DNA of 64,000 bases from Arenibacter sp. P308M17 (lineage in GTDB: Bacteria; Bacteroidota; Bacteroidia; Flavobacteriales; Flavobacteriaceae), in contig NZ_QVON01000008.1 in the NCBI RefSeq assembly GCF_003426735.1, forward strand, positions 62,001-126,000. Direction: 5' to 3'. The notes beneath the pieces are model-generated. The model worked only from the letters and a program-made list of their open reading frames with translations. It had not been told where the DNA came from and searched no databases. Below, in pieces: positions 31,047 through 47,199 of the stretch (its first letter is position 1; every line of letters starts with the position of its first letter). The position numbers were made by a program, and so were the translations under genes.

Positions 31047-31165
31047 AAATAGTCTTCTTTGGGAAGAAGTTAAATTCAAATTTGGGACCTAGGGGCAATT
31101 GCCAGCGGTATCCAAGCCTATAATTGGGGAAGGGATACCAATAAGCTATAAAATTGATACAAAAC

Positions 31166-32338
31166 ATGAGATTGTATTCCATTGATATTTTAAGGGCACT
31201 TACCATGTTTTTGATGATTTGGGTCAATGATTTCTGGACATTGAACGATGTTCCCAAATGGTTGCTGCATGCCAAGGAAAATGAAGATTATTTAGGGTTT
31301 TCGGATATCATATTTCCCTTGTTCCTTTTCATCGTTGGCTTAAGTATTCCTTTTGCCATAAAAAGTCGCTTGGACAAGGGCCATAGCTTACGGGAAATTG
31401 GTAAGCATATCATAATACGGTCTTTTTCCCTCCTACTGATCGGTCTTTTTATGGTCAATTACGAGACTGCCTACGATTTGGGAATTCCAATTGGAAAATA
31501 TTTTTGGGGCATCTTAATGGCCCTTGCCATATTCCTTATATGGACCGATTGGAAAAAGAGCCCCGTCTCCAGGAAATGGCAGCTTCCATTGCAGATTTTG
31601 GGTATTCTTGTTTTACTTTTTCTAGCGATGATTTATGAAGGGGGTGCCTCTGGGGAGTATTGGATGCGACCCCAGTGGTGGGGCATATTAGGGCTTATTG
31701 GTTGGGCCTATCTGGTAAATGCGCTTATCTTTCTCCTTTCGCGCGGCAAATGGACCGTGATAGTGTCCTTTTGGCTTTTATTCAATGTGCTGTCTGTTTG
31801 GAACCAAACCGATGCCGCCTTTGAACTTCAAGGGATATTCAGTTATTTTTCAACTATCGCGCAGGGAACGATTCCCGCATTTACCACCTCGGGAATGGTA
31901 GCCTCCTTGGTGCTTATTAAATGGTCCGGGCCAAGTTTAAAAAAAAGGTATGCCATATTAGTTCTTTTGGGGTTGGCAAGTATAGCATTTGCCCTAGTTG
32001 CCCGTCCTTTATGGGGAATCTCCAAATTGGGAGCTACACCTTCATGGTTGGCCATCTGTTCCGGACTGGGCTTTTTGGTTTTTGCAATTTTCCATTACCT
32101 CGCGGACCAAAAGGGGATTATCCATTGGGCAAAATTTATAGCCCCGGCGGGAACGGCAACATTAACCTGTTATATGTTGCCATACCTAATCTACCCCATA
32201 AGAAATCTAAGTACGTTCAGATTGCCACCTTTCTTTAATACCGGGGTTGTGGGTCTTTTAGGCTCCCTGGTTTTTGCCTATATGGTTGTTTTACTTACCG
32301 GATGGTTGGTAAAAAAAGGAATAAAACTGAAACTTTAA
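31166..32338 (+). CDS. HGSNAT/NagX-like membrane acyltransferase (DUF5009 type)
   Basis: This ~390-residue polytopic membrane protein has about ten hydrophobic helices. The N-terminus (RLYSIDILRALTMFLMIWVNDF) and the first loop (DIIFPLFLFIVGLSIPFAI) match the heparan-alpha-glucosaminide N-acetyltransferase / DUF5009 family. Members acetylate terminal amino sugars using acyl-CoA across the membrane, or are NagX-like proteins linked to N-acetylglucosamine use. It opens a run of ten same-strand genes and is followed after 7 bp by the cytochrome protein. An amino-sugar substrate would fit the DgaE-like enzyme and deacetylase further on. The ATG at 31166 is preferred over a TTG at 31154. Confidence 0.85.
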   Translation: MRLYSIDILRALTMFLMIWVNDFWTLNDVPKWLLHAKENEDYLGFSDIIFPLFLFIVGLSIPFAIKSRLDKGHSLREIGKHIIIRSFSLLLIGLFMVNYETAYDLGIPIGKYFWGILMALAIFLIWTDWKKSPVSRKWQLPLQILGILVLLFLAMIYEGGASGEYWMRPQWWGILGLIGWAYLVNALIFLLSRGKWTVIVSFWLLFNVLSVWNQTDAAFELQGIFSYFSTIAQGTIPAFTTSGMVASLVLIKWSGPSLKKRYAILVLLGLASIAFALVARPLWGISKLGATPSWLAICSGLGFLVFAIFHYLADQKGIIHWAKFIAPAGTATLTCYMLPYLIYPIRNLSTFRLPPFFNTGVVGLLGSLVFAYMVVLLTGWLVKKGIKLKL

Positions 32339-32345
32339 AACACGG

Positions 32346-34124
32346 ATGGCCATGAGAGGGACATTTTTTAAGAAGTACATTTTCTTCCCATCGATCATTT
32401 TAATTGGGATTTTACTTTTTGTAAAATGTAATTCCAATAATGACCTCCCTGCCGGGGATAAGGACAATGGCGGACTTTATTTGCCCGGGGATTTTGAGGC
32501 GGTAGTGGTGATAGACAGTCTAAAGGGCAGGGCCAGGCACCTAACGGTAAACACCAATGGGGATATTTATGTGAAGCTGAGGTTTCCGGATTCCCTTGGG
32601 GGCAATGCTGCACTTCGGGATACCGACAATGATGGGAAGGCGGATATTGTTAAAACTTTCGATGATTATCTGGACAGGAGCAGTTATGGAACCGAAATGA
32701 AAATTCACAATGGGTATCTATATTTTAGTTCGGTGACGCGTATTTTTCGCCAAAAACTTACCAAAGATTTGGTGCCGGATACTGAGTTGGAGTTAATATT
32801 GTCAGAAACGGAACGTCCCGGACAACATGCAACCAAGCCTTTGGCCTTTGATGATCAGGGCAATATGTACACTATTTTTGGTGCGCCTTCGGATGCTTGT
32901 CAGGTGGATGACAGATCGCCCATGTCCCCTGGTATTTTTCCATGTCCGTTATTGGAGCACAGGGCGGGCATATGGAAATTTGATGCCAACAAAAAGGGGC
33001 AGTTCCAACAGGACGGAACAAAATTTGCCACCGGACTTAGAAGTGTGGTAGGATTAAGTTGGAACAAGCAGGATAACAACCTGTATGCCGTGGTTCATGG
33101 TCGCGATTACCTCCACAATACCTGGCCAAGGGAATTTACTGCCTGGGAAGGTGCGGTCTTGCCCTCAGAGGTCTTCCTAAGACTTAGGGAAGGGGACGAT
33201 GCCGGTTGGCCCTACCATTATTATGATCAGATCAAGAAAGGCTATTATCTTAATCCAGAGTATGGGGGCGATGGGGAAAAGCAGGGCGACATAAGTAAAC
33301 TTACAGAGCCTGTAGTGGGTTTTCCGGGTCATTTTGCCCCCAATGACCTCCTGTTTTATGAAGGCGACCAATTTCCGGATCGATACAGGAACGGGGCATT
33401 TATAGCCTTTCACGGGTCTACCAGTAGTTCCCCTTATCCACAATCCGGTTATTTTGTAGGCTTTGTACCCATGCAAAATGGTATTCCTACGGGGCCATGG
33501 GAGGTATTTGCCGATGGTTTTGCGGGCAGGGATACCGTGGCGAACACTAGTGAAGCCAAATATAGGCCTATGGGATTGGCTGTTGGGCCAGACGGATCAT
33601 TGTATGTTTCCGATTCCAAAATGGGAAAAATATGGAGAATTATGTACAAGGGGAACAAAGCGGATTTTGGGAGTTCCCAGCTTGCTGCCATGGATAAAAG
33701 AAAAAGGACCGCCACTAATATAAAGACACCTGATGAAAAAGAGGATATACTCGTTCCCGATGGATATTTTGGGGAAGTAGAGGAGGATAAATTGTCCAAA
33801 GGCGGCCAACTGTACAATATTTTTTGTTCGGTCTGCCACCAAAGGGACGGGAAGGGCAATGAGCGTTTTCCACCTTTGGACAATTCGGAATGGGTCCTAG
33901 GGGATAAAACGAAATTGATCAATGTTATCCTTCAAGGGCTTAGGGGAGAGATAATGGTGAAAGGGAAGTCCTATAACAATGCCATGCCCAAATTACATAT
34001 GTTGAAGGATGAAGAAATTTCTGAAATCCTGACTTTCATAAGGCAAAATTTTGGCAACAATGCCTCACCTATTGAACCCGAGGAAGTTGCGAATGTTAGA
34101 AAGACTGTTCCCAATGGCCCTTGA
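32346..34124 (+). CDS. Six-bladed propeller (sorbosone/glucose dehydrogenase-like) with C-terminal cytochrome c
   Basis: This 592-residue exported protein is probably membrane anchored by its N-terminal helix (FFPSIILIGILLFVKC; the lipobox is poor). Residues ~40-450 form a PQQ-dependent sugar dehydrogenase/sorbosone dehydrogenase-like propeller (GRARHLTVNTNGDIYVKLR, TGLRSVVGLSWNKQDNNLYAVVHGRDYL, GLAVGPDGSLYVSDSKMGKIWRI). Residues ~480-575 are a class I cytochrome c with one heme site, C-S-V-C-H at ~494-498, and a likely methionine ligand in MPKLHML. It would oxidise a sugar or sugar acid in the periplasm and pass electrons to the respiratory chain. Its partner may be the second propeller/cytochrome protein at the other end of the cluster (41959-44175). 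Confidence 0.85.
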   Translation: MAMRGTFFKKYIFFPSIILIGILLFVKCNSNNDLPAGDKDNGGLYLPGDFEAVVVIDSLKGRARHLTVNTNGDIYVKLRFPDSLGGNAALRDTDNDGKADIVKTFDDYLDRSSYGTEMKIHNGYLYFSSVTRIFRQKLTKDLVPDTELELILSETERPGQHATKPLAFDDQGNMYTIFGAPSDACQVDDRSPMSPGIFPCPLLEHRAGIWKFDANKKGQFQQDGTKFATGLRSVVGLSWNKQDNNLYAVVHGRDYLHNTWPREFTAWEGAVLPSEVFLRLREGDDAGWPYHYYDQIKKGYYLNPEYGGDGEKQGDISKLTEPVVGFPGHFAPNDLLFYEGDQFPDRYRNGAFIAFHGSTSSSPYPQSGYFVGFVPMQNGIPTGPWEVFADGFAGRDTVANTSEAKYRPMGLAVGPDGSLYVSDSKMGKIWRIMYKGNKADFGSSQLAAMDKRKRTATNIKTPDEKEDILVPDGYFGEVEEDKLSKGGQLYNIFCSVCHQRDGKGNERFPPLDNSEWVLGDKTKLINVILQGLRGEIMVKGKSYNNAMPKLHMLKDEEISEILTFIRQNFGNNASPIEPEEVANVRKTVPNGP

Positions 34125-34240
34125 GACCTAATAAAAGAAAAACCAACTTCTATATGCAGTCAAAATGAATAAACCGTATTTTTAGATCACTTCTAAAACA
34201 AAACCGTATGAAATATCCATTAGCAAAATTTTCAAACCTT

Positions 34241-34254
34241 CCGATAATTATCGG
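34241..34254. repeat. CCGATAATTATCGG palindrome, copy 1
   Basis: A perfect 14-bp palindrome followed by GAC, 24 bp before GC-rich repeat copy b. The same palindrome plus GAC is at 52498-52511, ahead of copy d. Both precede a lipoprotein gene, so palindrome and repeat may form one composite element. Confidence 0.55.
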
Positions 34255-34277
34255 GACGAAAATGATTTCTTGGATAT

Positions 34278-34339
34278 TTTACCCGCCTGTCCGCCCTTTC
34301 CGGTACGGACGGGAATGAAGAAGTCGGGCAGGTCTGACC
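34278..34339 (+). repeat. GC-rich leader repeat, copy b
   Basis: The element reads ACCCGCCTGTCCGCCC, then TTTCCGGTACGGACGGGAAT and GAAGAAGTCGGGCAGGTCTG, closely matching copy d. It ends 26 bp before the ATG of the SMP-30-like gene, in the sense direction. An open frame runs through it (from 34270), but the encoded residues are repeat-derived, which decides for the ATG at 34366. Confidence 0.7.
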
Positions 34340-34365
34340 TATTAAAAATAAATAAAAAAGAACAG

Positions 34366-35340
34366 ATGAAATACCAATCCAGTCCATTTATAATTTTCAA
34401 TTCAACCGTTTTATGTCTACTGCTATTGGTTGCCGGATGTAAGGACAAACAACCCAAGGATACACCAATGGTACCTAGTGATATTGTCCAAGAAGCAAAA
34501 TCGTCCTTGTACCATAGTTCCCAATTTACCAAACCTTCCGGTTTTCCATCGGGAATTGAAGGTCCTGCGGTAGACGCCAATGGAATTTTATACGCCGTTA
34601 ATTTTGAAAAACCGGGAACCATAGGACAGGTAGATCCCCAAGGAACGGCCTCCTTATTTGTGAATTTGCCGGAAGGCAGCATAGGCAATGGGATCCGTTT
34701 TAACAGCAAAGGTGAAATGTTCATAGCAGATTATACAAAGCATAACATTTTAAAAGTGGATATGGACACCAAAGAGATCAGCGTTTTTGCCCATAACGGG
34801 GATATGAACCAGCCCAATGATATTGCAATAATGGACAACGATATTCTTTTTGCCAGTGATCCTGACTGGAAGAATTCCAAAGGGCAGATCTGGAGAATCG
34901 ATACCGAGGGAAAAATAACCCTATTGGAAGGGGATATGGGTACCACCAACGGAATTGAGGTTAGTCCGGATAACAGAACTCTTTATGTAAACGAATCCGT
35001 ACAGCGCAATGTTTGGGCCTACGATCTTTCGCCGGAAGGAGGGATTGCCAATAAGCGTTTGTTAATAAAATTTGAGGATTTTGGGATGGATGGAATGCGT
35101 ACCGATACCGAGGGAAATCTGTACATTACCCGCCATGGAAAAGGTACTGTGGTCATAGTTTCGCCCGAAGGGGTTATTCTTGAAGAAATTAAGTTAAAGG
35201 GGAAGACACCCTCCAATATTGCTTTTGGGGGAAAGGATGGCAGAGCTGCTTTTATTACACTTCAAGATAATGGCAATTTTGAAACCTTTGAAACGGAACA
35301 TCCGGGGAGGGAATTTATTATGATGGACAAAAGCAAATAA
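34366..35340 (+). CDS. SMP-30/gluconolactonase-like propeller lipoprotein
   Basis: This 324-residue lipoprotein (lipobox LLLVAGCKDK) has an SMP-30/gluconolactonase/LRE-like six-bladed propeller: SGIEGPAVDANGILYAVNFEKPGTIGQVD, GNGIRFNSKGEMFIADYTKHNILKVDM, QPNDIAIMDNDILFASDPDW, TNGIEVSPDNRTLYVNESVQRNVWAYDL and FGMDGMRTDTEGNLYITRHGKGTVVIV. The Glu of the EGPAVD motif and the Asn/Asp metal ligands (NGI, PND, TNGIE, DGMR) are present, so a calcium-dependent lactonase is plausible. Next to a sugar-dehydrogenase-like protein it would open an aldonolactone. Other members only bind ligands, so the activity is inferred. Confidence 0.85.
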   Translation: MKYQSSPFIIFNSTVLCLLLLVAGCKDKQPKDTPMVPSDIVQEAKSSLYHSSQFTKPSGFPSGIEGPAVDANGILYAVNFEKPGTIGQVDPQGTASLFVNLPEGSIGNGIRFNSKGEMFIADYTKHNILKVDMDTKEISVFAHNGDMNQPNDIAIMDNDILFASDPDWKNSKGQIWRIDTEGKITLLEGDMGTTNGIEVSPDNRTLYVNESVQRNVWAYDLSPEGGIANKRLLIKFEDFGMDGMRTDTEGNLYITRHGKGTVVIVSPEGVILEEIKLKGKTPSNIAFGGKDGRAAFITLQDNGNFETFETEHPGREFIMMDKSK

Positions 35341-35566: not shown

Positions 35567-36811
35567 ATGAAAAGCAACCTTACCATCTATTTAGTTTCTA
35601 TGGCATTACTATTCCTTTCCAAATCGGTTCTTGGACAGGAATATGATTTATTGATCAAAAATGGGACACTGATAGATACCAAAAGTGAGATCAACAAAAA
35701 AATGGATGTCGCTATTTTTAATGGCAAAATAGCTGAAATTGCCAATAGCATTTCAGATAAAAAGGCAAAAACGGTTATAGATGCCAATGGGATGTTGGTA
35801 ACCCCCGGCCTTTTGGATATACATGGCCATGTCTTTTATGGTACGGACGAAAACAGTATGTACAGTGGAGGTATGAGCAGTGTAGCCCCGGATAATTTCA
35901 CCTTCCGTACCGGGGTTACCACAATAGTGGACGCGGGAAGTTCGGGATGGAGAAATTTTCATATTTTCAAAAAGCAGACCATTAACAATTCAAAAACAAG
36001 GGTTTTGGCCTTTTTGAATATTGTTGGTTCCGGAATGAAAGGGGGTGTCGTGGAGCAGGATGTTAACGATATGGATCCCAAGTTGACGGCAAAAACGGTA
36101 AAAAGCAATCCGGAAATAGTGGGGGTTAAACTGGCACATTACGAAGGCTACGAATGGGATCCTTTGGAAAGGGCGGTAGAAGCAGGGGTTATGGCCAATG
36201 TACCGGTAATGGTCGATTTTGGGGGCAGTAAACCCGCCCTATCGTTGAAAACCCTTTTTCTGGAAAAATTAAGGCCGGGCGATATTTTTACCCATGCCTA
36301 TGCTTCCTTAAATAGTAGGGGAAAAGTAGTGGATGATAATGGCAAGGTAGCCCCCTTTGTATTTGAGGCCCAGAAAAAGGGAATTATCTTCGATGTGGGA
36401 CACGGCGGAGGTAGTTTTGCATTTGAACAGGCCGTACCGGCAATGAATCAGGGTTTTAAACCCAATTCCATAAGTACGGATCTGCATATTGGGAGTATGA
36501 ACGGTGGTATGAAGGACCTACTAAATATCATGTCCAAATTTTTAAATATGAATATGGCATTGCCCGAGCTTATTGCAAGTGTTACCTGGAATCCTGCACA
36601 GTATATACATAGGCCGGAACTGGGACATTTGGAGGTAGGCGCCATTGCCGATGTGGCCGTTTTAAGTATTCGGCAGGGCCATTTTGGTTTTATGGATACC
36701 AAGGGGGTTAAGATCATGGGCAACCAAAAATTGGAATGCGAACTTACCATTAAGGATGGGGAAGTTGTTTACGATCTAAACGGACTTTCAGGTAAGAATT
36801 GGAAGGACTAA
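35567..36811 (+). CDS. Exported amidohydrolase/deacetylase (EF_0837/AHA_3915-like)
   Basis: This 414-residue metallo-dependent hydrolase has a Sec signal (residues ~5-22, ending LGQ). The TIM barrel shows H86-G-H88 (LLDIHGHVFYG), a likely carboxylated Lys in VGVKLAHYEGYEWDP, a later His in DIFTHAYASL, DVGHGGGSF, and the final Asp in SISTDLHIGSMNGG. This family is often encoded beside a SelA/DgaE-like PLP enzyme, and here that enzyme is the next gene, which supports the subfamily call. Those relatives are cytoplasmic; this one carries an export signal. The likely reaction is N-deacetylation or ring opening of an amide-bearing sugar acid or amino acid derivative. Confidence 0.85.
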   Translation: MKSNLTIYLVSMALLFLSKSVLGQEYDLLIKNGTLIDTKSEINKKMDVAIFNGKIAEIANSISDKKAKTVIDANGMLVTPGLLDIHGHVFYGTDENSMYSGGMSSVAPDNFTFRTGVTTIVDAGSSGWRNFHIFKKQTINNSKTRVLAFLNIVGSGMKGGVVEQDVNDMDPKLTAKTVKSNPEIVGVKLAHYEGYEWDPLERAVEAGVMANVPVMVDFGGSKPALSLKTLFLEKLRPGDIFTHAYASLNSRGKVVDDNGKVAPFVFEAQKKGIIFDVGHGGGSFAFEQAVPAMNQGFKPNSISTDLHIGSMNGGMKDLLNIMSKFLNMNMALPELIASVTWNPAQYIHRPELGHLEVGAIADVAVLSIRQGHFGFMDTKGVKIMGNQKLECELTIKDGEVVYDLNGLSGKNWKD

Positions 36812-36874
36812 GAAACTGTTTGAATTTTGGTTAGGGGGGTAGGATTATTGTTATCTTTTCCAGCATGGACCAAG

Positions 36875-36992
36875 CTAGTGTAATGTTAATCGTGAAATGA
36901 CTTCTCGATTGCGCTCGAAGTGACGAAGATTGTCTGGTCGAGCGCAGTCGAGACCTGAATTTAATGACATAACATCCTTAACATAACACTAG
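36875..36992. repeat. Nested inverted-repeat element, 118 bp (element 3)
   Basis: The outer arms are TAGTGTAATGTTAA (36876-36889) and TTAACATAACACTA (36978-36991), 13 of 14 paired, extended by a C/G pair. The inner arms are TCTCGATTGCGCTCGA (36903-36918) and TCGAGCGCAGTCGAGA (36938-36953), 16 bp with one G-T wobble. It occupies part of the 353-bp gap between the amidohydrolase and SelA-like genes. The rest of the gap holds the short amidohydrolase remnant at 37046-37071. Confidence 0.65.
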
Positions 36993-37045
36993 TTCTAAAA
37001 TTTAAACTACAGTACCAACAATTAGGGGAATGGCCGTGTTAGGGT

Positions 37046-37071
37046 TGGAGAAATTTTCATATCTTCAAAAA
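37046..37071 (+). pseudogene. Remnant matching the amidohydrolase gene (26 nt)
   Basis: TGGAGAAATTTTCATATCTT followed by CAAAAA matches 35948-35973 inside the amidohydrolase gene with one mismatch in 26 nt. In the matching frame it reads G-W-R-N-F-H-I-F-K, flanked by stop codons. Similarity fades quickly on both sides. It looks like a scar of a former duplicate or of recombination about 1.1 kb downstream of the parent. Confidence 0.45.
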
Positions 37072-37164
37072 CCGTGGGCCAATGGCACTCTGAAAACCAT
37101 ATAGGATTTTTAATGTATTGGTTTGGGAAGCGAAAACACATAGGAACAATAATAAATAGCAAGC

Positions 37165-38796
37165 ATGAACCGTAGGGAAATAATTAAACAGTTGGGTGTT
37201 GTTCCCATTGCAGGAAGTTTAATGGCCAGTGAGACCATGTTCGGGAGTGCCCTTGGTACAACGGGGCCTCTGGCGCCAGGACCGTACTCCGCCGGGCAAA
37301 GTATCTTTGAATCCATTGGGGTAGATACCATCATCAACTGTCGCGGTACCTTTACCATTTTAGGGGGTTCTACGGAACGTCCCGAAGTATTGAAGGCCAT
37401 GGAGGCCGCTACGGGCTATTTTGTGCAGTACGATGAATTGGCCTTTGGCATAGGACGCCGCTTGGCGGAACTCACCAAGGCACCATGGGGAATGGTATCA
37501 TCGGGTTGTGCCGCGGGTATGAAACACGTAACCGCCGCCTGTGTAACCGGGGGCAACCCGGAAAAGCTGATCAGGATTCCCAACTTGGAGGGTTTTGAGA
37601 AAAATGAGGTTATAATTCCCCGTAGCTCCAGAAATGTTTATGACCAAGCCATTCGAAATATAGGGGTAAAGGTAATTATGGTGGAAACTCCTGAGGAGTT
37701 GGAGCGGGCCATCAATTCCAGAACCGCAATGATCTATATAATGACCGGAAGGGATAACGAAACGGGGAGACCGCTTTCCCTGGAAGTGATCAGTGGGATC
37801 GCCAAACCAAAGAACATCCCTATTTTGGCCGATGCGGCCGCGGAGAATTTGAGTATTCCCTGTGTACATCTGGAAAGGGGCGCTACCGTAGTGGCCTATA
37901 GCGGTGGCAAGGCACTATGCGGACCACAATGTGCCGGCCTTTTATTGGGGGATAAGGACATATTGATGGCTGCTTGGCAGGCCAGTTCCCCACACCATGG
38001 CCCGGGAAGGGACAATAAGGTAGGGAAAGAGGAAATGCTGGGAATGCTGGCGGCCGTAGAGGCCTGGACCACTAGGGACCATGATAAGGAGTGGGACACT
38101 TGGCTGTCCTGGTTGGAGGAAATCTCTTCAAAACTCACCAAAATAGAGGGAATAAGCGCTGAAGTAGAATTGCCGACGGGTTTGGACAATAGGGCCCCCA
38201 GACTCATCCTGAAATGGGATCCGGACAGGCTTCATATTACCGGGGAAGAAATTGCCGAGGAGGTGGCACGCAACAGACCAAGGATAGCCATTGGAGGCAG
38301 ATCTTCCGAGGACGGGACAACAAGCATATCCATTACCCCCAGTCAAATGAGACCGGGAAATGCCAAGTTGGTGGCCAACCGACTTTATGATATATTATCC
38401 GCAGAGCGTAAGCCCCGATCGGACAAGATGGCCCCGGCAAGTGTTAACGTTACAGGGCATTGGGAAGTGGAGATACAGTTTTTTACCTCCAAAAGCACCC
38501 ATAAATTTTTCTTGGAACAGGAAGGGAATTGGATCAAGGGAACCCATACCAGCGATTATGCCATGCAGGAAATGGCCGGAATGATAGAGGGGGACGAGGT
38601 AAAACTTAGGAGTCATTTTAACGTTCCGGGAAACTCCATAAATTATTGGTTTTCGGGAAAAGTATCCAACGGAACCTTTAATGGATCCGTATTTTTGGGC
38701 GAATACCTTACGGCCAAGTTTACGGCCAAACAGCTGGCCTATAAAGCGGAACATAAAAAAATAAGCGTTCCGGGAGGTCCACCCTTGGCTACTTAG
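37165..38796 (+). CDS. Tat-exported SelA/DgaE-like PLP-dependent lyase with extra C-terminal beta domain
   Basis: This 543-residue protein has a twin-arginine leader (NRREIIKQLGVVPIAGSLMAS). Residues ~40-430 are a fold-type I PLP enzyme of the SelA / D-glucosaminate-6-phosphate ammonia-lyase type: NCRGTFTILGGS, GRRLAELTKAPWGMVSSGCAAGMKHVTAACV, ILADAAAE, and the Schiff-base lysine K249 in YSGGKALCGPQCAG. Residues ~445-535 are a separate beta-rich, lipocalin-like domain (GHWEVEIQFFTSKSTHKFFLEQEGNWIKG ... GSVFLGEYLTAKFTAK). Tat export suits a PLP enzyme because it leaves the cytoplasm folded with cofactor. The predicted reaction is beta-elimination of ammonia from an amino-sugar acid or amino acid, giving an enamine/imine; RidA, the next gene, would process it. 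Confidence 0.85.
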   Translation: MNRREIIKQLGVVPIAGSLMASETMFGSALGTTGPLAPGPYSAGQSIFESIGVDTIINCRGTFTILGGSTERPEVLKAMEAATGYFVQYDELAFGIGRRLAELTKAPWGMVSSGCAAGMKHVTAACVTGGNPEKLIRIPNLEGFEKNEVIIPRSSRNVYDQAIRNIGVKVIMVETPEELERAINSRTAMIYIMTGRDNETGRPLSLEVISGIAKPKNIPILADAAAENLSIPCVHLERGATVVAYSGGKALCGPQCAGLLLGDKDILMAAWQASSPHHGPGRDNKVGKEEMLGMLAAVEAWTTRDHDKEWDTWLSWLEEISSKLTKIEGISAEVELPTGLDNRAPRLILKWDPDRLHITGEEIAEEVARNRPRIAIGGRSSEDGTTSISITPSQMRPGNAKLVANRLYDILSAERKPRSDKMAPASVNVTGHWEVEIQFFTSKSTHKFFLEQEGNWIKGTHTSDYAMQEMAGMIEGDEVKLRSHFNVPGNSINYWFSGKVSNGTFNGSVFLGEYLTAKFTAKQLAYKAEHKKISVPGGPPLAT

Positions 38797-38846
38797 AAAC
38801 GAAACTATAAATCGATATATTACAATAACAATTAAATCTTATAATT

Positions 38847-39323
38847 ATGGAAAACAAAACAACAAGAAGGGCATCTTTTAAAAAATTAGGAATGGGATTG
38901 GCGGCTATGTTTGGAGTAGGTGCCACCGCTAGGGCAATAGACGGGGGCGAAAGGCCAAAAAAGGAAGTAGTGGGAGACATTGTCATGGACCAGGACATAC
39001 CTTTGTTCTCTGGTGGGGTAAAACATGGAAATACACTTTATATAGCGGGCAAGGGGGCACATGTGGAGCCTTTTGAGATCAAGGCACATACCGAGATTGT
39101 TTTGCAGGAATTGGAAAAGGAGCTAAAAAAGCATGGTTCTTCCATGGACAAAGTATTGAAAGTGAATGTTTATTTGGCTGATTTGGCAGATTATAAGGGA
39201 ATGAACGAAGTTTTTAGGGGGCGTTTTGGACCCAACCCCCCGGTTAGGACCACCGTGGCCACTTATGGGGGAGTACCAGGGAATTCATTGGTAGAAATGG
39301 ACTGTATAGCCGCTTTGGACTAG
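38847..39323 (+). CDS. Tat-exported RidA (YjgF/UK114) family imine deaminase
   Basis: This 158-residue protein has a Tat leader (TTRRASFKKLGMGLAAMFG, cleavage after ATARA) followed by a complete RidA domain (~45-158): FSGGVKHGNTLYIAGKGA, LQELEKELKKHGSSMDKVLKVNVYL, GPNPPVRTTVATYGG and LVEMDCIAAL. Arg134 matches the arginine that archetypal RidA needs for 2-aminoacrylate/imine hydrolysis, so it is predicted active. RidA proteins normally work in the cytoplasm. Export together with a Tat-exported PLP lyase 50 bp upstream suggests they handle the same imine in the periplasm. Confidence 0.9.
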   Translation: MENKTTRRASFKKLGMGLAAMFGVGATARAIDGGERPKKEVVGDIVMDQDIPLFSGGVKHGNTLYIAGKGAHVEPFEIKAHTEIVLQELEKELKKHGSSMDKVLKVNVYLADLADYKGMNEVFRGRFGPNPPVRTTVATYGGVPGNSLVEMDCIAALD

Positions 39324-39356
39324 ATAACGATGTATTATCCTTTAAAAACTTTTTAA

Positions 39357-40283
39357 ATGAAGTTCCATAGAATTGCACTATTCTTTTTTGGTTTTTGTAT
39401 CACCTATAATGCCTTTTCACAGACCCTTCCCAAGGAGGAATTGATTTTTTTGACCTCCGAATGGAAAGGGGCACGCTTTGATGATGGCCGGCCAAAAATA
39501 CCGGACGACCTATTGGAACGGGCAAAAAAAATTGGGATAGACGATGCATGGACCGTCCTTGAAAATGAAGGCTATAAAAATCAGTTCGAGGGCAATTGGA
39601 AAATGGTCCATAACGATGTCCCCGTTGTAGGCAGGGCACTCACCGCCCTGTTCATGCCAAGTCGGCCGGATGTGGAGAGGAACATCAAGGAAAGGGGCAC
39701 AACCTCCCAAGGGAGGAAGGGCAATACCAATTCTTGGCCCATAGAGGTCCTTACCAAGGGCGATGTATATGTGGCCGATAGTTTTGGTAAGATAGATGCA
39801 GGCACCCTTATGGGAGCCACCTTGGCAACTTCCATATACAGCAAATCCGGTAACGGGGTAGTTTTTAACGGAAGTGCAAGGGACCTTGAGAGCATAAGCC
39901 AGATGGAAGGATTCAATGCCTTTGTCCGGGATTTTCACCCGTCCTTTTTGGAAGAGGAAGTACTGATGGGGCTCAACACCCCAATACGTATTGGGCAGGT
40001 AATGGTGTTGCCGGGCGATCTTGTCCTGGCCAAGAGGGAGGGAGTACTGTTCATTCCTGCACATTTGGCCGAACAAGTAGTTAGTACTGCCGAATTCGTA
40101 GCCCTTAAGGACCAGTTTGGCTTTGAGATGGTAAGGACCAAGAAATATTCCACAGGAGAGATAGATAGTCAATGGACAGAGCAGTTAAAAAAAGAATTTC
40201 TGGCCTGGTTGGACAAACATCCGGAATTGGGAAGGATGTCCAAGGAGACTTTGGATAAGGTTTTAAGCAAAAGAACATGGTAA
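39357..40283 (+). CDS. Exported RraA-like/HMG-aldolase-family protein
   Basis: This 308-residue protein has a Sec signal (residues ~5-20, ending AFSQ). The RraA/HMG-CHA aldolase fold spans ~60-250: ALTALFMPSRPDVE, GDVYVADSFGKIDAGTLMGATLATSI, GVVFNGSARDLESISQM and VLPGDLVLAKREGVLFIPA. R175-D176 (SARDLESI) matches the catalytic Arg and metal-binding Asp of HMG/CHA-type aldolases, so catalysis is possible; RNase-E inhibition is not, because the protein is exported. An insertion at ~100-130 and the long C-terminal tail make it larger than typical 160-240-residue members. It may cleave or decarboxylate the keto-acid produced by the PLP lyase and RidA. Confidence 0.82.
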   Translation: MKFHRIALFFFGFCITYNAFSQTLPKEELIFLTSEWKGARFDDGRPKIPDDLLERAKKIGIDDAWTVLENEGYKNQFEGNWKMVHNDVPVVGRALTALFMPSRPDVERNIKERGTTSQGRKGNTNSWPIEVLTKGDVYVADSFGKIDAGTLMGATLATSIYSKSGNGVVFNGSARDLESISQMEGFNAFVRDFHPSFLEEEVLMGLNTPIRIGQVMVLPGDLVLAKREGVLFIPAHLAEQVVSTAEFVALKDQFGFEMVRTKKYSTGEIDSQWTEQLKKEFLAWLDKHPELGRMSKETLDKVLSKRTW

Positions 40284-40795
40284 TCGGAGTACAGAAGTGG
40301 ATGAATAGGGTAAGCTGCGGCTGGCTCATGACCGTTGTACCAATGTTAATTTTGTTTGGGTGCAAACAAAATGTGGATCAAACTAAGACCCTGCTTTTGG
40401 GGGAGGACGTTCAAATTACAATGGATGAAGTGCAACGGGCCGTGTCCACTTTTAATGAAGCCATGGTAAATCCGACCGCGGAATTCATGGAGGCCCTTTG
40501 TGCAGATGCACTCACCTACGGACATTCCAGTGGACTGATCCAAAACAAGGCCGAATTTATAGACGATATTGTAAACGGGCCCTTCAATTTCTCCTCTGTG
40601 GAGGCCCCTGATCAGACTATACATATATCTGGAAACACAGCAATCGTCCGTCATATTTTTTTGGCCAAGGCCACCAATGCCGGAGTGCCCGTAGATATCC
40701 GTATCGGTAATATACAGGTATACCAAAAGGATAAGGATGGCAAGCTCAAACTTTTGGCCAGACAGGCCTATAAATTGCCAGTAGAAACCAATTAA
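40277..40795 (+). CDS. SnoaL/NTF2-like (DUF4440-type) lipoprotein
   Basis: This up to 172-residue lipoprotein (lipobox LILFGCKQN) has a nuclear-transport-factor-2-like domain: MDEVQRAVSTFNEAMVNPTAEFMEALCADALTYGHSSGLIQNKAEFIDDI, IHISGNTAIVRHIFLAKA and DIRIGNIQVYQKDKDGKLKLLARQAYKL. Its ATG at 40277 overlaps the RraA stop by 7 bp. A second ATG at 40301 gives a more usual leader length and may be the real start. SnoaL-like folds act as small isomerases, hydrolases or binding proteins; the role here is unknown, but cotranscription with RraA and RidA ties it to the pathway. Confidence 0.8.
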   Translation: MVIGVQKWMNRVSCGWLMTVVPMLILFGCKQNVDQTKTLLLGEDVQITMDEVQRAVSTFNEAMVNPTAEFMEALCADALTYGHSSGLIQNKAEFIDDIVNGPFNFSSVEAPDQTIHISGNTAIVRHIFLAKATNAGVPVDIRIGNIQVYQKDKDGKLKLLARQAYKLPVETN

Positions 40796-40811
40796 TCCAA
40801 ACCGACCAATT

Positions 40812-41909
40812 TTGAAAAAACCAACCATTCATTCCATTTGCCTTGGCATGGCCGCTATATTGCTGTTAGTTGTTCTGGGCATGATCCTTACAGATAACAT
40901 AGAAAATGCGGGGCTTTTAATAATGGCCTTTTTTGCACTTCTGGCCGTTGGCTTTAGTGGGTATAAATCCCTGAGCAGTTATGTTTTTACCGCCTCCATA
41001 TTTGCAGGGGTAGCCTTGGCACTATATTACCCGCAATACTTTCTGCAAATAGGCGATTTTAAGCTTACGGGATTGATCATACCCTTGATCCAACTTATTA
41101 TGTTCGGCATGGGGACCTCCATGAGTATTGGCGATTTTGCCGAGGTGGTCAAATCCCCCAAAGGGGTAATGGTGGGTGTCTCTGCACAGTTGTGCATAAT
41201 GCCCATAATGGGCTTTGTGCTGGCAAAGGTCAGTAATTTTCCACCGGAGATCGCGGCAGGGATCGTTTTGATCGGTTGCTCTCCCAGTGGGGTGGCATCC
41301 AACGTAATGGCCTATTTGGCAAAGGCCAATCTGGCCCTCTCCATTACAATTACTTCCATATCAACACTACTTGCACCTTTTGTAACTCCCCTTCTTATGA
41401 AGTTATTGGCCGGGGAATTTATAGAAATAGAGGTGCTGGACATGATGTGGAGTATTGTAAAGATGATTATTTTGCCGCTTGGGGCAGGAATTCTATTAAA
41501 CCGTTTTAGAGGGGACAAGGCCAAATGGATGGACAGGGCACTTCCCATAATCTCCATGTTGGGCATTGGCCTTATAATCGTGGTCATAACGGCCGCAGGT
41601 AGGGATAGCCTATTGGATATTGGCGGAATCTTAATGCTATTGGTATTGATCCATAATTTGTTTGGGTATATGCTAGGTTATTGGTACGCCCGTCTACTGC
41701 GTTTGAACGAGCAGGATTCGCGCACCATTGCCTTGGAAGTAGGCATGCAGAACGGGGGCTTGGCCTCTGGCATAGCCAATTCCTTGGGGAAAATAGCCAC
41801 CATGGGTCTGGCTCCGGCCGTATTTGGGCCCTTGATGAATATAACAGGGTCCATTCTGGCCTCCTATTGGCATAAAAGGCCTCCAAAAACGGCTAAGGAT
41901 ACGGATTAA
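40812..41909 (+). CDS. BASS-family (bile acid:sodium symporter-like) transporter
   Basis: This ~365-residue inner-membrane protein has about ten helices. The family core is visible: LIMFGMGTSMSIGDFAEVVKSPKGVMVG, IGCSPSGVASNVMAYLAKANLALSIT, LAPFVTPLLMKLLAG, and EVGMQNGGLASGIANSLG (the second Asn-rich crossover). BASS members move organic anions, for example bile acids, pantoate or keto acids, with sodium. Here it is the only solute carrier of the cluster and would import the acid made by the exported enzymes upstream. The first codon appears to be TTG at 40812; an ATG at 40848 is the alternative and would shorten the first helix. Confidence 0.85.
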   Translation: MKKPTIHSICLGMAAILLLVVLGMILTDNIENAGLLIMAFFALLAVGFSGYKSLSSYVFTASIFAGVALALYYPQYFLQIGDFKLTGLIIPLIQLIMFGMGTSMSIGDFAEVVKSPKGVMVGVSAQLCIMPIMGFVLAKVSNFPPEIAAGIVLIGCSPSGVASNVMAYLAKANLALSITITSISTLLAPFVTPLLMKLLAGEFIEIEVLDMMWSIVKMIILPLGAGILLNRFRGDKAKWMDRALPIISMLGIGLIIVVITAAGRDSLLDIGGILMLLVLIHNLFGYMLGYWYARLLRLNEQDSRTIALEVGMQNGGLASGIANSLGKIATMGLAPAVFGPLMNITGSILASYWHKRPPKTAKDTD

Positions 41910-41958
41910 TAATGTAATTTGACCAGGCAAAATATATATAAATAGCATTATATTGATT

Positions 41959-44175
41959 ATGATCAAATTAAGGTCGGTTTTGCTTCTTCTTGTGATTGTA
42001 AATTGTGGGAAAAAAGAATACAAGGATAAAATTTATGTAAAACCAGAAATTGTAAGGGAAGCACCTTCCGATTTTCTTTCTCCCGAAGAAAGTTTGAAAA
42101 GATTTTATCTGCCCGAGGGGTATAGGATAGAATTGGTGGCATCCGAGCCAATGGTGAATGAACCTGTGGCTATTGCCTGGGATGGTGATGGCAAGATGTA
42201 TGTGGCCGAAATGGACACCTATATGCAAAATGTGGATGGTACAGGGGAGGATGAACCTATTAGTCAGATAAAACTTTTAGAGGATTTGGATGGGGATGGA
42301 AAAATGGACAAGAGCACCGTCTTTATTGATAGTTTAGTATTGCCAAGGATGATCTTACCGCTCGATGACCGACTTATTGTAAATGAAACCTATTCGTATG
42401 ATCTATGGAGCTATAGGGATACCGATAATGATGGAGTGGCCGATGAAAAGATCAGGGTTTATGAAAATCCAAAAAGAAGGGGGGGCAATCTAGAGCACCA
42501 ACAGAGTGGTCTGGTTTGGAACTTGGACAATTGGGTGTATACCACCTACAACCCATTGCGATTTAGGTTTAATAAGAACGGAATACAAGTAGATTCCCTG
42601 GTAGATGGTTCCAGTGGACAATGGGGCTTGACCCAAGATGATTTAGGAAATATGTACTATTCTTCTGCAGGTGGAGAAACTGCGGCGTATGGTTTTCAGG
42701 TACCGCCAATTTATGGTGAAGTGGATTTGGAAGGACAGATCTCGGAAGGATTTATGGAACCATGGCCGATTGTTGGCACCCCTGATGTACAGGGTGGTGC
42801 CGAATTAAGGTTGAAGGAGGATGGTACTTTGAATAAATTTACCGGGGTAGCCGGCCAAGAAATATTTAGGGGCGATAAATTACCCCCATCCACTTATGGG
42901 GATCTATTTATTCCCGAACCAGTGGGCAGGTTGATCCGTAGGGCAAAAATAAAAAATGAGAACGGTAAAAAAGTGTTGTATAATGCCTACGACCAAGCAG
43001 AATTTTTAGCCTCTACGGATTTGAACTTTAGACCGGTGCAGGCACAAACAGGACCTGATGGGAGCCTTTATATTGTAGACATGTACCGTGGCATTATCCA
43101 AGAAGGCAATTGGACCAGGGAAGGGAGCCATTTAAGACCCGTAATTCTTAGGAAAGGTTTGGACAAGAATATTGGAAGAGGTAGAATATATCGTATTGTC
43201 CATGAGGAGATCAAACCAGGTGGAAAACCCAAACTTTTGGATAAATCCGCCAAAGAGCTGGTAGATTACTTAGGTCATCCCAATGGATGGTATAGAAATA
43301 CCGCCCAAAAGCTGATCATATTAAAAGGAGATATGGCTGTGGTGCCCAAACTTAAGGATATTACAAGGGATAATGAGTCTTTTTGGACAGAAAACTTTGG
43401 AGATAAAGACTATCCCCGTGAAAGGATCCATGCCTTATGGACTTTGGAGGGTTTAGGTGTTGTGGATAAGTCACTTATTCTTGAAAAGTTAAATGATGTG
43501 GATCCAAGGGTTCGAATGACGGCCATAAGGTTAAGTGAAGAGTTTTTGAAGAAAGGGGATCAAGACATTTTGCAAGCGTTGGCCAAATTACAAAAGGATA
43601 TGGACATTAATGTTGTAAATCAATTGGCATTAAGTTTAGGACATTCCAAAAGTGCCGATGGCTCCGCTCTGTTGGGTTCTATCTCGGAAGAATACGGGGA
43701 CAATGAACTGGTAGCGGCTTCGGTAAAGCTCAGTTTAAAGGCAAATGATTCTGAATTGCAGAAATTAAAGAACAGGATAGCCCACAGGAGCAATGGAGAA
43801 AAATATAGGACTATAGATGGTTATGATATTTATAAACAGACCTGCATTACCTGCCACGGCCCTGATCTAAAAGGGGTTCCCAATGGAGAGAATTCTCTGA
43901 TTGCACCATCTTTAATTGGGTCACCTAGGGTAATTGGTGATAAAGAAGTGCTTATAAAAATCCTTTTAAATGGCCTTACAGGTCCTATTGAAGGTAAGGA
44001 GTATGGTATAATGTTGCCTATGGGAAGTAACGATGATGATTGGATCGGCCATGTGGCCACTTACATTCGCTCTATGAACGATACTACTATGGTCCATGAA
44101 AATGAGGTTAGGGATATCCGTGCCAAAAACGCGGAAAGGAAAAGCTATTGGACGTTACAGGAACTCATGAAATAA
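41959..44175 (+). CDS. Membrane-bound dehydrogenase-type propeller with HEAT-like repeats and cytochrome c
   Basis: This ~738-residue lipoprotein-like protein (VIVNCGKKE) has a propeller domain at ~50-420 typical of the 'putative membrane-bound dehydrogenase' family of Planctomycetes and Bacteroidota (FYLPEGYRIELVASEPMVNEPVAIAWDGDGKMYVAEM ... PDGSLYIVDMYRGIIQ). A helical HEAT-like stretch is at ~430-600, and a cytochrome c domain at ~615-715 has one heme site, C-I-T-C-H (~628-632). It closes the run of ten same-strand genes and mirrors the cytochrome protein that opens it. The substrate is unknown. An in-frame TTG two codons upstream was not used. Confidence 0.83.
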   Translation: MIKLRSVLLLLVIVNCGKKEYKDKIYVKPEIVREAPSDFLSPEESLKRFYLPEGYRIELVASEPMVNEPVAIAWDGDGKMYVAEMDTYMQNVDGTGEDEPISQIKLLEDLDGDGKMDKSTVFIDSLVLPRMILPLDDRLIVNETYSYDLWSYRDTDNDGVADEKIRVYENPKRRGGNLEHQQSGLVWNLDNWVYTTYNPLRFRFNKNGIQVDSLVDGSSGQWGLTQDDLGNMYYSSAGGETAAYGFQVPPIYGEVDLEGQISEGFMEPWPIVGTPDVQGGAELRLKEDGTLNKFTGVAGQEIFRGDKLPPSTYGDLFIPEPVGRLIRRAKIKNENGKKVLYNAYDQAEFLASTDLNFRPVQAQTGPDGSLYIVDMYRGIIQEGNWTREGSHLRPVILRKGLDKNIGRGRIYRIVHEEIKPGGKPKLLDKSAKELVDYLGHPNGWYRNTAQKLIILKGDMAVVPKLKDITRDNESFWTENFGDKDYPRERIHALWTLEGLGVVDKSLILEKLNDVDPRVRMTAIRLSEEFLKKGDQDILQALAKLQKDMDINVVNQLALSLGHSKSADGSALLGSISEEYGDNELVAASVKLSLKANDSELQKLKNRIAHRSNGEKYRTIDGYDIYKQTCITCHGPDLKGVPNGENSLIAPSLIGSPRVIGDKEVLIKILLNGLTGPIEGKEYGIMLPMGSNDDDWIGHVATYIRSMNDTTMVHENEVRDIRAKNAERKSYWTLQELMK

Positions 44176-44180
44176 TAGAA

Positions 44181-44223
44181 AAAGGGACAACTAGAAATTT
44201 ACAGTTGTATACGTTGTCCCTTT
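44181..44223. terminator. Bidirectional terminator hairpin between convergent genes
   Basis: AAAGGGACAAC (44181-44191) and GTTGTCCCTTT (44213-44223) form a perfect 11-bp stem with a 21-nt loop; A and T tracts on both sides give U-runs on each transcript. It begins 6 bp after the propeller/cytochrome stop and overlaps the last codons of the convergent oxidoreductase gene. Confidence 0.8.
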
Positions 44224-45194
44224 AAATTACTTTCTTCCAACTTTTCAATTACCAGCATATTCTTAACGGCATCCTCTAGTGGAGTGGGGACTGGGGTATT
44301 ATTTTGTATGGCCAAGGCAAAAAGGTCGGCCTGGATGGTGTATTGATTACAGATATCAAATTCAATGGTTTGGCACTCTTCGTCTATGGTGAGCCATATT
44401 TTTGCCGGCCTATCAATGGGGGGGTTAAAGGGTAGTTCAAATTTTATATTTCCTTTGGTTCCGAAAACTTGTGCCTGTTGATTGTACGCCAATTGTGTAG
44501 CGCTGAAGAATACTGAAGTGCCGGTTTCGAACTCCAATATGCCTGAGGCTAATATATCTACCTTAAAATCTGGGTGATACTCTATAACGGAAGAAATACT
44601 CTTTGGCTCCGAATTGAACAAAAAACGGGATAGGGATATAGGGTAGCATCCTATATCCATTAAACTTCCACCCCCAAATTCTTTATTGTTTACGATACTA
44701 TTGGGGTCATCTTCATAGAACGAAAAGGACGATTGAATGGCCTTAATGTCACCTATAACCTTTTGGTCCACTAGTTCCTTGGCTTTTATCCATTGGGGGT
44801 GATGCCTGTACATAAAGGCTTCCATTACCTTTAAGTGAGGGTATTTAAGGGAAGTTTTTAATAATTTTTCAGCTTCCTTACTGGACAGGCCAACTGGTTT
44901 TTCAACCAGCACATGTTTGTTCGCTTCCAAGGCCTTAATGGCCCATTTCACATGTAGGTGATTGGGCAAAGGAATATAGATGGCCTCTACTTCCCTATCG
45001 GACAATAATTCCTCATACGAACCATATGGTTTTTCTATCCCGTACAGCTTGGATATTGTTTTGGCCTTCTCCAAATTTCTCGAGGCAATGGCATGAACAT
45101 CCCCATGTAGGCAGTTGAGCATTGCTGGAATTACCTGCTCCGTTGCAATATGGGCAGTGCCCAAAATTCCCCATTTAAGTTTCTTATCCACCAT
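44199..45194 (-). CDS. Gfo/Idh/MocA-family NAD(P)-dependent oxidoreductase
   Basis: This 331-residue cytoplasmic protein has no signal peptide. The N-terminal Rossmann fold starts KWGILGTAHIATEQVIPAML, and the family motif VEKPVGLSSKEAEKLL (Glu-Lys-Pro) is at ~97-112. The C-terminal alpha/beta domain includes GGGSLMDIGCYPISLSRFLF with the Asp-x-x-x-His/Tyr type active site. Such enzymes oxidise or reduce sugar or inositol carbons. It lies 3 bp after a DHDPS/NAL-family aldolase gene, so the two are cotranscribed and probably act on the same sugar acid. Its 3' end is shared with a bidirectional terminator. Confidence 0.9.
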   Translation of the reverse strand: MVDKKLKWGILGTAHIATEQVIPAMLNCLHGDVHAIASRNLEKAKTISKLYGIEKPYGSYEELLSDREVEAIYIPLPNHLHVKWAIKALEANKHVLVEKPVGLSSKEAEKLLKTSLKYPHLKVMEAFMYRHHPQWIKAKELVDQKVIGDIKAIQSSFSFYEDDPNSIVNNKEFGGGSLMDIGCYPISLSRFLFNSEPKSISSVIEYHPDFKVDILASGILEFETGTSVFFSATQLAYNQQAQVFGTKGNIKFELPFNPPIDRPAKIWLTIDEECQTIEFDICNQYTIQADLFALAIQNNTPVPTPLEDAVKNMLVIEKLEESNLKGQRIQL

Positions 45195-45197
45195 TTT

Positions 45198-46109: not shown

Positions 46110-46143
46110 ATATTATATTTAACAGGACAAAGTAACTTTAAAA

Positions 46144-46197
46144 GGCAAGGGTGTACCACTATTATATTATTTAAAACAGATAATATATTGACCCTTG
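46144..46197 (-). terminator. Terminator after the divergent DHDPS-like gene
   Basis: GCAAGGGT (46144-46151) pairs with ACCCTTGC (46190-46197), with a long A/T stem inside. On the minus strand it is followed by CCTTTTAAAG, a short U-run. It lies ~65 bp past the stop of the gene ending at 46263 and before the next minus-strand gene, splitting the cluster into two transcripts. Confidence 0.65.
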
Positions 46198-46262
46198 CGT
46201 ATTTTATGTCAAAGTGATGTTGGATAGTGTTTAGGCCGTATTTGCCATGGGTATATCCAAGA

Positions 46263-47195: not shown

Positions 47196-47199
47196 CTTA

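Follow-up and report, generated by a model that had tools for sequence, protein, structure and literature searches.

A candidate extracytoplasmic, Entner-Doudoroff-like pathway for N-acyl amino sugars in Arenibacter sp. P308M17

A gene set for a putative exported amino-sugar pathway

The DNA analysed here, a 64-kb stretch of the 5.04-Mb genome of Arenibacter sp. P308M17 (positions 62,001 to 126,000 of contig NZ_QVON01000008.1; referred to below as the window), carries consecutive genes for a deacetylase-type amidohydrolase, a pyridoxal phosphate (PLP)-dependent enzyme related to the ammonia lyase DgaE, a RidA protein, an RraA-like protein, a SnoaL-like lipoprotein and a BASS-family carrier. 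We suggest, with moderate confidence, that the products of this cluster form an Entner-Doudoroff-like pathway that would degrade an N-acyl amino sugar outside the cytoplasm and without phosphorylation. Gene content and its conservation, the signal-like N-termini, the protein folds and the patterns of catalytic residues can be read directly from the data; the substrate, the enzyme activities and the location of the enzymes are what we infer. The preliminary description of this DNA had assigned the six genes to these families and had pointed to particular catalytic residues (HxH at 86/88 in the amidohydrolase, Lys249 in the PLP enzyme, Arg134 in RidA and Arg175-Asp176 in the RraA-like protein); the genes, all on the forward strand, and the residues were found at these places. 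The gene set, however, begins further upstream than that description had assumed (32346-35340), and the putative oxidation step encoded there, by a propeller dehydrogenase-cytochrome c and a lactonase, had been missed.

In the route that we envision, a lipoprotein-like β-propeller protein resembling PQQ-type sugar dehydrogenases and equipped with a C-terminal cytochrome c (32346..34124, forward strand like all genes of the cluster; GSDH and cytochrome c in Pfam) would oxidise the sugar at C1 and pass the electrons to its own haem, and an SMP-30/gluconolactonase (SGL)-like lipoprotein (about 34363..35340, with a start chosen by us; PF08450, 142.9 bits) would open the lactone. The acyl group would be taken off the amino-aldonate by the Sec-like exported amidohydrolase/deacetylase (35567..36811; above the cut-off of NF006689), our candidate N-deacylase. 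The Tat-like exported DgaE/SelA-like PLP enzyme (37165..38796; TIGR01437, with Lys249), a proposed ammonia lyase, would eliminate water and release an enamine/imine, which the Tat-like exported RidA (38847..39323; PF01042), the proposed enamine/imine hydrolase, would convert to a 2-keto-3-deoxy acid and ammonia. The Sec-like exported RraA-like protein (39357..40283; PF03737), a proposed 2-keto-3-deoxy acid aldolase, would split this acid into pyruvate and an aldehyde, and the BASS-family carrier (40812..41909; SBF, above the Pfam cut-off) would import the 2-oxoacid. The gene for a DUF4440 (SnoaL-like) lipoprotein (40277..40795; PF14534) is located between the last two.

More tentatively, and in a reading that we consider somewhat short of probable, members of the Bacteroidota would run an Entner-Doudoroff-type pathway without phosphorylation and entirely outside the inner membrane, from the oxidation of the sugar up to the cleavage of a carbon-carbon bond. 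Its heads would be largely interchangeable, with a Tat-exported dehydratase of aldonates where the substrate is a plain sugar acid, and the deacylase, PLP ammonia lyase and RidA where it is an amino-sugar acid; both would feed one exported RraA aldolase, often accompanied by a BASS importer, and enamine chemistry would then take place in the periplasm with the participation of RidA. The proposal concerns known types of pathway, unusual in their location and modular in their logic, and not a new kind of chemistry. If true, complete carbon- and nitrogen-releasing catabolism, including PLP-enamine chemistry and RidA, would proceed outside the inner membrane. The initial oxidation would yield electrons for respiration, only small acids would be imported, and ammonia would be released to the outside. 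RidA has been discussed as protecting PLP enzymes from free enamines (excerpts of PMC9529869); were an exported RidA paired with an exported lyase, its catalytic role could be tested directly. In a literature search by term, which left subscription papers mostly uncovered, we found no account of such a pathway in exported form.

Conservation of the gene neighbourhood

Relatives of the DgaE-like protein (E 1e-30 or better, the genome of the window being counted in each set) are sparse and were detected in 9 of 149 genomes of the family, 11 of 18 of the genus, and 8 of 392 of the phylum. We examined 30 stretches, each some 15-20 kb long, that surround DgaE homology hits in 25 genomes; these stretches are partly related, with 14 of them originating from the genus of the window, and contain genes for RidA (28), the amidohydrolase (27), the propeller-cytochrome protein (22), a CBM9 protein (19), the BASS carrier (12), RraA (11) and the SGL protein (11). 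Among the 16 stretches from outside the genus, the corresponding numbers are 15 for both RidA and the amidohydrolase, 13 for the propeller, 10 each for SGL and BASS, nine for RraA and eight for CBM9. As a control, 20 stretches chosen arbitrarily from these genomes contained no DgaE, RidA, RraA, SGL or BASS gene, one weakly matching amidohydrolase (19.7 bits) and one propeller/cytochrome gene (65 bits). The association of the gene set is therefore not a matter of chance. That the PLP enzyme, RidA and the amidohydrolase are conserved together, as the preliminary description had anticipated, is hence borne out; of the trio of PLP enzyme, RidA and RraA that it had singled out, the first two members keep company, and the third is encoded in only 11 of the 30 stretches (nine of the 16 from outside the genus).

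The same association is visible within the genome of the window. Only two of its eight matches to the amidohydrolase family are above the cut-off, and each of these genes adjoins one of the two DgaE-like genes of the genome; two of the five RidA genes are likewise positioned beside DgaE-like genes. An all-or-nothing cluster is rejected, as ten genus-level loci (L062, L064-L072) have neither RraA nor BASS in the stretch.

The PLP enzyme possesses an extra C-terminal domain (about residues 430-523, with eight predicted β strands) that matches no Pfam family. In a scan of one genome per species, covering 84,980 species, at least 594 stretches were recovered, of which at least 582 encode relatives, and the best 80 loci for proteins with this C-terminal domain were kept. 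As judged from the record titles, these 80 loci belong to five phyla, the Bacteroidota, Acidobacteriota, Chloroflexota, Gemmatimonadota and Latescibacterota, and the lyase subfamily appears to be signal-bearing in most rows examined. Carriers of the lyase with this domain include Sinomicrobium, Flagellimonas, Chryseolinea and Dyadobacter, relatives that can be cultured. Planctomycetes were not found among the best 80, and no separate search for them was made. The amidohydrolase is encoded in 45 of these loci, RidA in 22, the propeller in 21, RraA in nine, SGL in eight and BASS in seven; at least one of the six partners is present in 50 and at least two in 33. In GC-rich contigs these counts are lower bounds, since longest-frame calling of open reading frames (ORFs) sometimes drops a real gene there (e.g., in L093, L101, L106 and L153).

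Exchange of gene partners beside the exported RraA-like protein

Among the arguments for the order of the pathway, the strongest, one drawn from gene context, comes from the partners of RraA. A close homologue of the window's RraA-like protein (E 1e-30 or better) is present in 24 of the 392 genomes of the phylum, among them all eight with DgaE. We inspected 18 RraA stretches without a nearby DgaE gene (L207-L224), which represent all 16 genomes that lack DgaE at the above threshold, one of them at two places, and a second place in the genome G408; several of these genomes encode RraA at additional places outside this sample. In 15 of the 18, RraA adjoins a dehydratase of the enolase superfamily with a twin-arginine N-terminus. 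Those of the dehydratases that were compared with family models are MR_MLE proteins, with galactonate dehydratase as the best NCBIfam match, below its cut-off; at one locus (L213), RraA has a UxuA-type protein as a further neighbour. Such a twin-arginine dehydratase occurs in none of the 20 control stretches, none of the 30 DgaE stretches, and four of the best 80 loci. Conversely, no amidohydrolase, RidA or propeller-cytochrome gene was labelled in the 18 RraA stretches, and BASS is encoded in seven of them; these loci would represent a wider exported sugar-acid pathway. In a tree of 40 RraA proteins, five changes of gene context are needed, four of which are forced by well-supported branches; when L103 is omitted, there are four changes, three of them forced. 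The exported RraA has thus repeatedly been joined either to a dehydratase or to the deacylase, PLP lyase and RidA. Because an exported dehydratase replaces the nitrogen-handling genes beside RraA, gene context makes a 2-keto-3-deoxy acid the most likely RraA substrate, derived either from a dehydrated sugar acid or from a deacylated and deaminated amino-sugar acid. A strict exclusion of the two heads is rejected, given that the locus L103 (83-12260) carries both, with the twin-arginine dehydratase gene between those for BASS and RraA, and genes for a C-domain DgaE, two amidohydrolases and RidA in addition.

The RraA-like protein itself exceeds the cut-off of its family (PF03737, 67.2 bits; cut-off 24.5), and its Arg175-Asp176 pair is invariant in the 18 aligned rows. 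It is not close to the aligned portion of the other RraA-like protein encoded by the genome (22% identity over 143 columns). For the carrier, TIGR00841 (238.8 bits; cut-off 326.3) and the PanS model NF047939 (232.5 bits; cut-off 400) are both matched below their cut-offs, and the PanS keto-pantoate carrier is the best named match after the general BASS model.

An aldolase role for RraA is likely, but it is not certain, since another RraA-like enzyme, FlDet of a marine Flavobacterium, is reported to be a KDGR dehydratase/decarboxylase (excerpts of PMC8563752). This enzyme lends weight to an alternative that we consider unlikely: the pathway would start from an amino-uronic or amino-aldaric acid, from which the lyase would form a 2-keto-3-deoxy-hexarate, and RraA would act as a dehydratase/decarboxylase yielding α-ketoglutarate semialdehyde. 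The window also holds genes of glycan-degradation families (GH43, glycoamylase, GH20b/GH67N) and ORFs that appear sulfatase-like by eye, which also counts in favour of this alternative. The portions of PMC8563752 consulted, however, mention no export of FlDet, the word periplasm is absent from the paper, and the dehydratases adjoining the exported RraA, with their best matches to galactonate dehydratase and once a UxuA-type protein among them, point to aldonates.

The PLP enzyme and RidA

The PLP enzyme matches TIGR01437 (149.7 bits; cut-off 385.3) and NF047797 (138.3 bits; cut-off 600), both below their cut-offs. Its PLP-lysine, one of the catalytic residues that the preliminary description had regarded as intact, is retained: the Lys249 column holds lysine in all 140 DgaE-family rows. 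In the ammonia lyase DGL, a phosphate was modelled near Arg301, Arg332 and Arg346, and His163 gives a proton to C3, the enamine being released without this residue (excerpts of PMC9529869). The same source numbers the lysine 217; if the chain is numbered so as to agree with the other residues it names, the lysine of the SGxK motif becomes residue 213. None of the 140 rows has two or more of the three phosphate arginines and 11 have one, with the columns of Arg332 and Arg346 falling in a gappy region of the alignment; the enzyme of the window has an arginine in the column of Arg301. Histidine is found at position 162 in three rows and at position 163 in one, and 13 rows have some histidine in this loop. 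Since neither the cluster of phosphate arginines nor, with few exceptions, the proton-donating histidine is kept, the active-site pattern fits an unphosphorylated substrate, as would be expected outside the cell, and the product may leave the lyase as an enamine.

The loss of this histidine is a possible reason for the release of an enamine by the exported lyase, short of a proof. The RidA protein of the window exceeds the cut-off of PF01042 and remains below those of TIGR00004 and RutC, and the column of its catalytic Arg134 contains arginine in all 66 rows. The link between the lost histidine and RidA is suggestive: the enzymes of Klebsiella and Lacticaseibacillus, the latter encoded next to genes of a phosphotransferase system (PTS), keep all five residues, and no RidA was seen in the stretches inspected. 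A rule by which the loss of the proton-donating histidine equals the presence of RidA had to be rejected, as it is contradicted by the Rhizobium-type enzymes and by the loci L165 and L174. Independently of this, the L165 relative (37% identity; L165:7929-9530), encoded on a plasmid of Sinorhizobium medicae, is embedded in a phosphonate-like gene set comprising a PEP mutase, a cytidylyltransferase, a CDP-alcohol transferase and a P450.

In a second alternative, distinctly unlikely in our view, the PLP enzyme would depend on both O2 and PLP, as Cap15 does, instead of being an ammonia lyase, and an imine by-product would be cleared by RidA. Cap15 (8t7j; E 3.6e-26, TMt 0.83) is indeed the top Foldseek match, slightly ahead of DGL, and the ammonia lyase's His pair is not retained. 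Nevertheless, the lyase 7lc0 is equally close by fold (E 1.4e-25, TMt 0.84), scores higher by profile (201.9 versus 172.9 bits), and the replacement of the sugar-acid dehydratase by DgaE-type genes near RraA fits a 2-keto-3-deoxy product.

The amidohydrolase and the oxidative front end

The amidohydrolase passes the PRK09237 model (NF006689; 441.3 bits, cut-off 371), and several of its columns are largely conserved in the 111 aligned rows (H86 and H88 in 111, K188 in 102, H243 in 109, H279 in 88, D305 in 110); a deacetylase activity is proposed for it. We take activity toward acetyl-(R)-mandelate to occur in this amidohydrolase group and do not use it as evidence. In the loci L044-L153, we tabulated amidohydrolase and SGL genes with the idea in mind that a second amidohydrolase replaces the lactonase: at least two amidohydrolases without SGL are encoded in 25 loci and both together in seven, one amidohydrolase without SGL in 31, one with SGL in nine, and SGL only in three.

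The structure model of the propeller-cytochrome protein (pLDDT 86.5) retrieves AA12, PQQ-type or other glucose/aldose sugar dehydrogenases at Foldseek ranks 1-22, with AA12/CcPDH of the pyranose-dehydrogenase type in first place. Its profile matches the AA12 protein 6i1q with 38 bits over positions 80-400, most of the domain; equally high scores are reached by repeat propellers (teneurin-like, Pizza), in their case over single blades. The resemblance of the propeller to sugar dehydrogenases and the adjacent SGL protein suggest oxidation at C1 followed by opening of the lactone.

The substrates could instead be N-acyl-D-amino acids or other amino compounds, for instance from peptidoglycan, with the sugar-related genes as incidental neighbours. 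We consider this very unlikely. In its favour are the breadth of the amidohydrolase superfamily (58 NCBIfam matches), the merely proposed nature of the amino-sugar substrate, and OngB, a functionally analogous protein that is closest to D-aminoacylases (excerpts of PMC12017989); yet the propeller dehydrogenase, CBM9 and SGL genes of the DgaE stretches (22, 19 and 11 of 30, respectively) and the exchange with a sugar-acid dehydratase point to sugars.

Putative signals for export

The preliminary description had read export signals on all four enzymes, and signal-like N-terminal extensions are indeed present on each, as judged from the late start of the family models and from the N-termini of homologues. 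The matched domains start at residue 25 in the amidohydrolase (position 2 of the model), at residues 46-47 in the PLP enzyme (positions 1-2), at residue 53 in RidA (position 15) and at residue 49 in the RraA-like protein (position 7). Homologues carry twin-arginine-like N-termini on the PLP enzyme and Sec-like ones on the amidohydrolase and RraA; among 66 RidA homologues, 39 have a twin arginine or a near variant, 15 a lipobox, and 12 another type that is mostly lipobox- or Sec-like by eye. A script detected a twin arginine with a hydrophobic stretch in 124 of the 140 DgaE-family rows; five further rows carry such a signal by eye (L107, L108, L113, L143, L149), five are truncated or ambiguous (L114, L119, L134, L144, L152), and six have no signal.

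A twin arginine and a hydrophobic region are present in both the PLP enzyme and RidA of the window; Pfam detected no Tat signal in either of them, and the PLP enzyme reaches 18.4 bits with TIGR02811 (cut-off 48.45). The PLP homologue encoded at L063, a locus in another genome of the genus (36% identity), narrowly passes TIGR01409 (16.9 bits; cut-off 16.7). The structure model of the PLP enzyme is of low confidence at residues 9-43, and the genome has a TatC gene. The actual location of the enzymes would accordingly be outside the inner membrane as far as their N-termini indicate. PLP enzymes such as PvdN are precedents for a periplasmic location, and we do not count them as evidence.

The six signal-less proteins, from Latescibacterota (L091), Chloroflexota (L093, L099, L141) and Gemmatimonadota (L101, L106), are of the C-domain type and 59-65% identical to the protein of the window in the best segment. 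Export therefore appears to have been gained or lost inside the C-domain DgaE subfamily. The neighbours of five of these genes (L091, L093, L099, L101, L106) were read, and no consistent partner was recognised among them. That the extensions are membrane anchors or mis-called starts of cytoplasmic enzymes is highly improbable, for even if no curated Tat model is passed by the twin-arginine stretches of the window itself, each step has homologues with signal-like N-termini, of differing types (twin-arginine, Sec-like, lipobox). Of 13 aligned DgaE relatives encoded on plasmids, the two from Granulicella have a twin-arginine signal and the other 11 do not.

Observations that weigh against the proposal

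A number of observations speak against the pathway as we propose it. Genes for RraA and BASS are each absent in 18-19 of the 30 DgaE stretches and that for SGL in 19, so that the cleavage and import tail is optional; in this respect the preliminary description, in which cleavage and import were integral steps, needs to be amended, given that its tail is found in 11-12 of the 30 stretches. The partial relatedness of these stretches reduces their weight. No partner of the six is encoded in 30 of the best 80 C-domain loci, some of which are short contigs or GC-rich contigs where ORF calling fails. Three of the 18 RraA stretches have neither a dehydratase nor a DgaE head, and L103 holds both. The RraA-like protein of the window and its nearest relatives share an alanine at position 154, where 13 of 20 rows from DgaE contexts and 13 of 17 from dehydratase contexts have aspartate; we take this position, 21 residues before the arginine, to be the aspartate of the D-X20-R-D motif.

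With respect to the PLP enzyme, the top rank of Cap15, the occasional loop histidines and the gappy alignment around two of the arginines belong to the same side of the balance. So do the enzymes linked to ATP-binding cassette (ABC) transporters in Rhizobium, Aminobacter and Salipiger, which keep both histidines and two arginines and yet have RidA nearby, the histidine-less enzymes of Sinorhizobium medicae (L165) and Natronococcus (L174) without a RidA label in their stretches, and the six family members without a signal. PqqC was not found in the genome, and none of 14 control genomes matched either, so that this negative carries no weight. Finally, no link to chitinases or hexosaminidases has been established, no systematic search for one having been made.

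Genomic surroundings of the cluster

The propeller-cytochrome gene is directly preceded by that for a YeiB/HGSNAT-like membrane protein (31154-32338). Downstream of the carrier follows the gene for a PVC-type haem-binding propeller/HEAT/cytochrome protein (41953..44175, forward strand; above the cut-off of TIGR02604), which adjoins the same genes in the same order in one other genome of the genus (L063). A Gfo/Idh oxidoreductase gene and two genes of the DHDPS family (44199-47222) are oriented opposite to the cluster; ORFs of like order and near-identical lengths (330, 303 and 319 amino acids) follow the PVC-type gene at L063.

Between the genes for the amidohydrolase and the PLP enzyme, a gap of 353 bases (36812..37164) contains an 11-codon relic of an amidohydrolase gene (tblastn, E 4e-5), and 34 bases there are 91% identical to 35940-35973 in the intact gene. 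At the corresponding place, DgaE and amidohydrolase genes are each present twice in the close relative G156 (L045); because of this arrangement and the relic, one such gene pair may have been lost in the window. A short, partly inverted intergenic repeat occurs at 36892-36966, 30917-30996 and 13909-13940 (blastn within the window), and the G+C content at 36001-40000 (0.465) is the highest among the 16 four-kb blocks of the window (0.377-0.444 in the others).

A second exported set is encoded elsewhere in the same genome (L044; G000:C25:150000-169999) and comprises DUF1501, PSCyt and CBM9_2 proteins, an amidohydrolase, a DgaE-like protein with 34% identity to that of the window, a lipoprotein-like RidA and, by eye, a DUF1553-like fragment.

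Relation to known systems

In the non-phosphorylative Entner-Doudoroff pathway, an aldonate is converted to a 2-keto-3-deoxy acid and then to pyruvate and an aldehyde, with no phosphorylation taking place, a scheme shared by the route proposed here. To our knowledge, the known pathways of this type are cytoplasmic and use other aldolases. The HMG/CHA aldolase belongs to the same family as the window's RraA and has the same Arg-Asp pair; the latter differs by its predicted export, a longer C-terminus, and an alanine aligned with the aspartate beside Gly-101 of the HMG/CHA aldolase.

The DgaE/DGL systems have the PLP enzyme fold and lysine in common with the enzyme of the window, whose family does not keep the His pair and the three-arginine phosphate cluster of DGL. 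The Klebsiella gene set (amidohydrolase, DgaE, KDGP aldolase, lactonase) shares the amidohydrolase and DgaE families with the cluster of the window, whereas its aldolase and lactonase are of other families and no RidA was seen in the Klebsiella stretch. The Klebsiella and Salmonella DgaE systems are cytoplasmic, and that of Salmonella is PTS-coupled and acts on a phosphorylated substrate (excerpts of PMC9529869).

At the ABC-transporter loci of Rhizobium, Aminobacter and Salipiger, RidA is found near a DgaE-family (class-V PLP) enzyme as in the window, and an amidohydrolase is encoded at the Aminobacter and Salipiger loci and not within the Rhizobium stretch. These enzymes have no signal extension, uptake would precede the chemistry, and, unlike the family of the window, they retain both histidines and two of the arginines.

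A functional parallel is the Ong pathway of Pseudoalteromonas, in which the deacetylase OngB, the deaminase OngC and the RidA-family protein OngD are each required for growth on N-acetylglucosaminate, with the role of OngD being called unknown by its authors (excerpts of PMC9537276). Together with the kinase KdgK, these proteins form a system in which deacetylation and PLP-dependent deamination, along with a RidA-family protein, serve the use of an unphosphorylated amino-aldonate, as proposed for the window. The parts of that source consulted predict the Ong enzymes to be cytoplasmic, place a kinase where the cluster of the window would cleave directly, and describe OngB and OngC as D-aminoacylase-like and D-amino acid deaminase-like, in contrast to the PRK09237- and DgaE-type proteins of the window.

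Since cytoplasmic sets pair a DgaE-family enzyme with an amidohydrolase and/or RidA, the core of the preliminary description, namely deacylation, PLP-dependent deamination with RidA and cleavage outside the inner membrane followed by import of the acid, gains support from these parallels, next to the conserved neighbourhoods and the dehydratase exchange. By analogy, the gene set of the window reads as an exported counterpart of the cytoplasmic Ong and Klebsiella systems.

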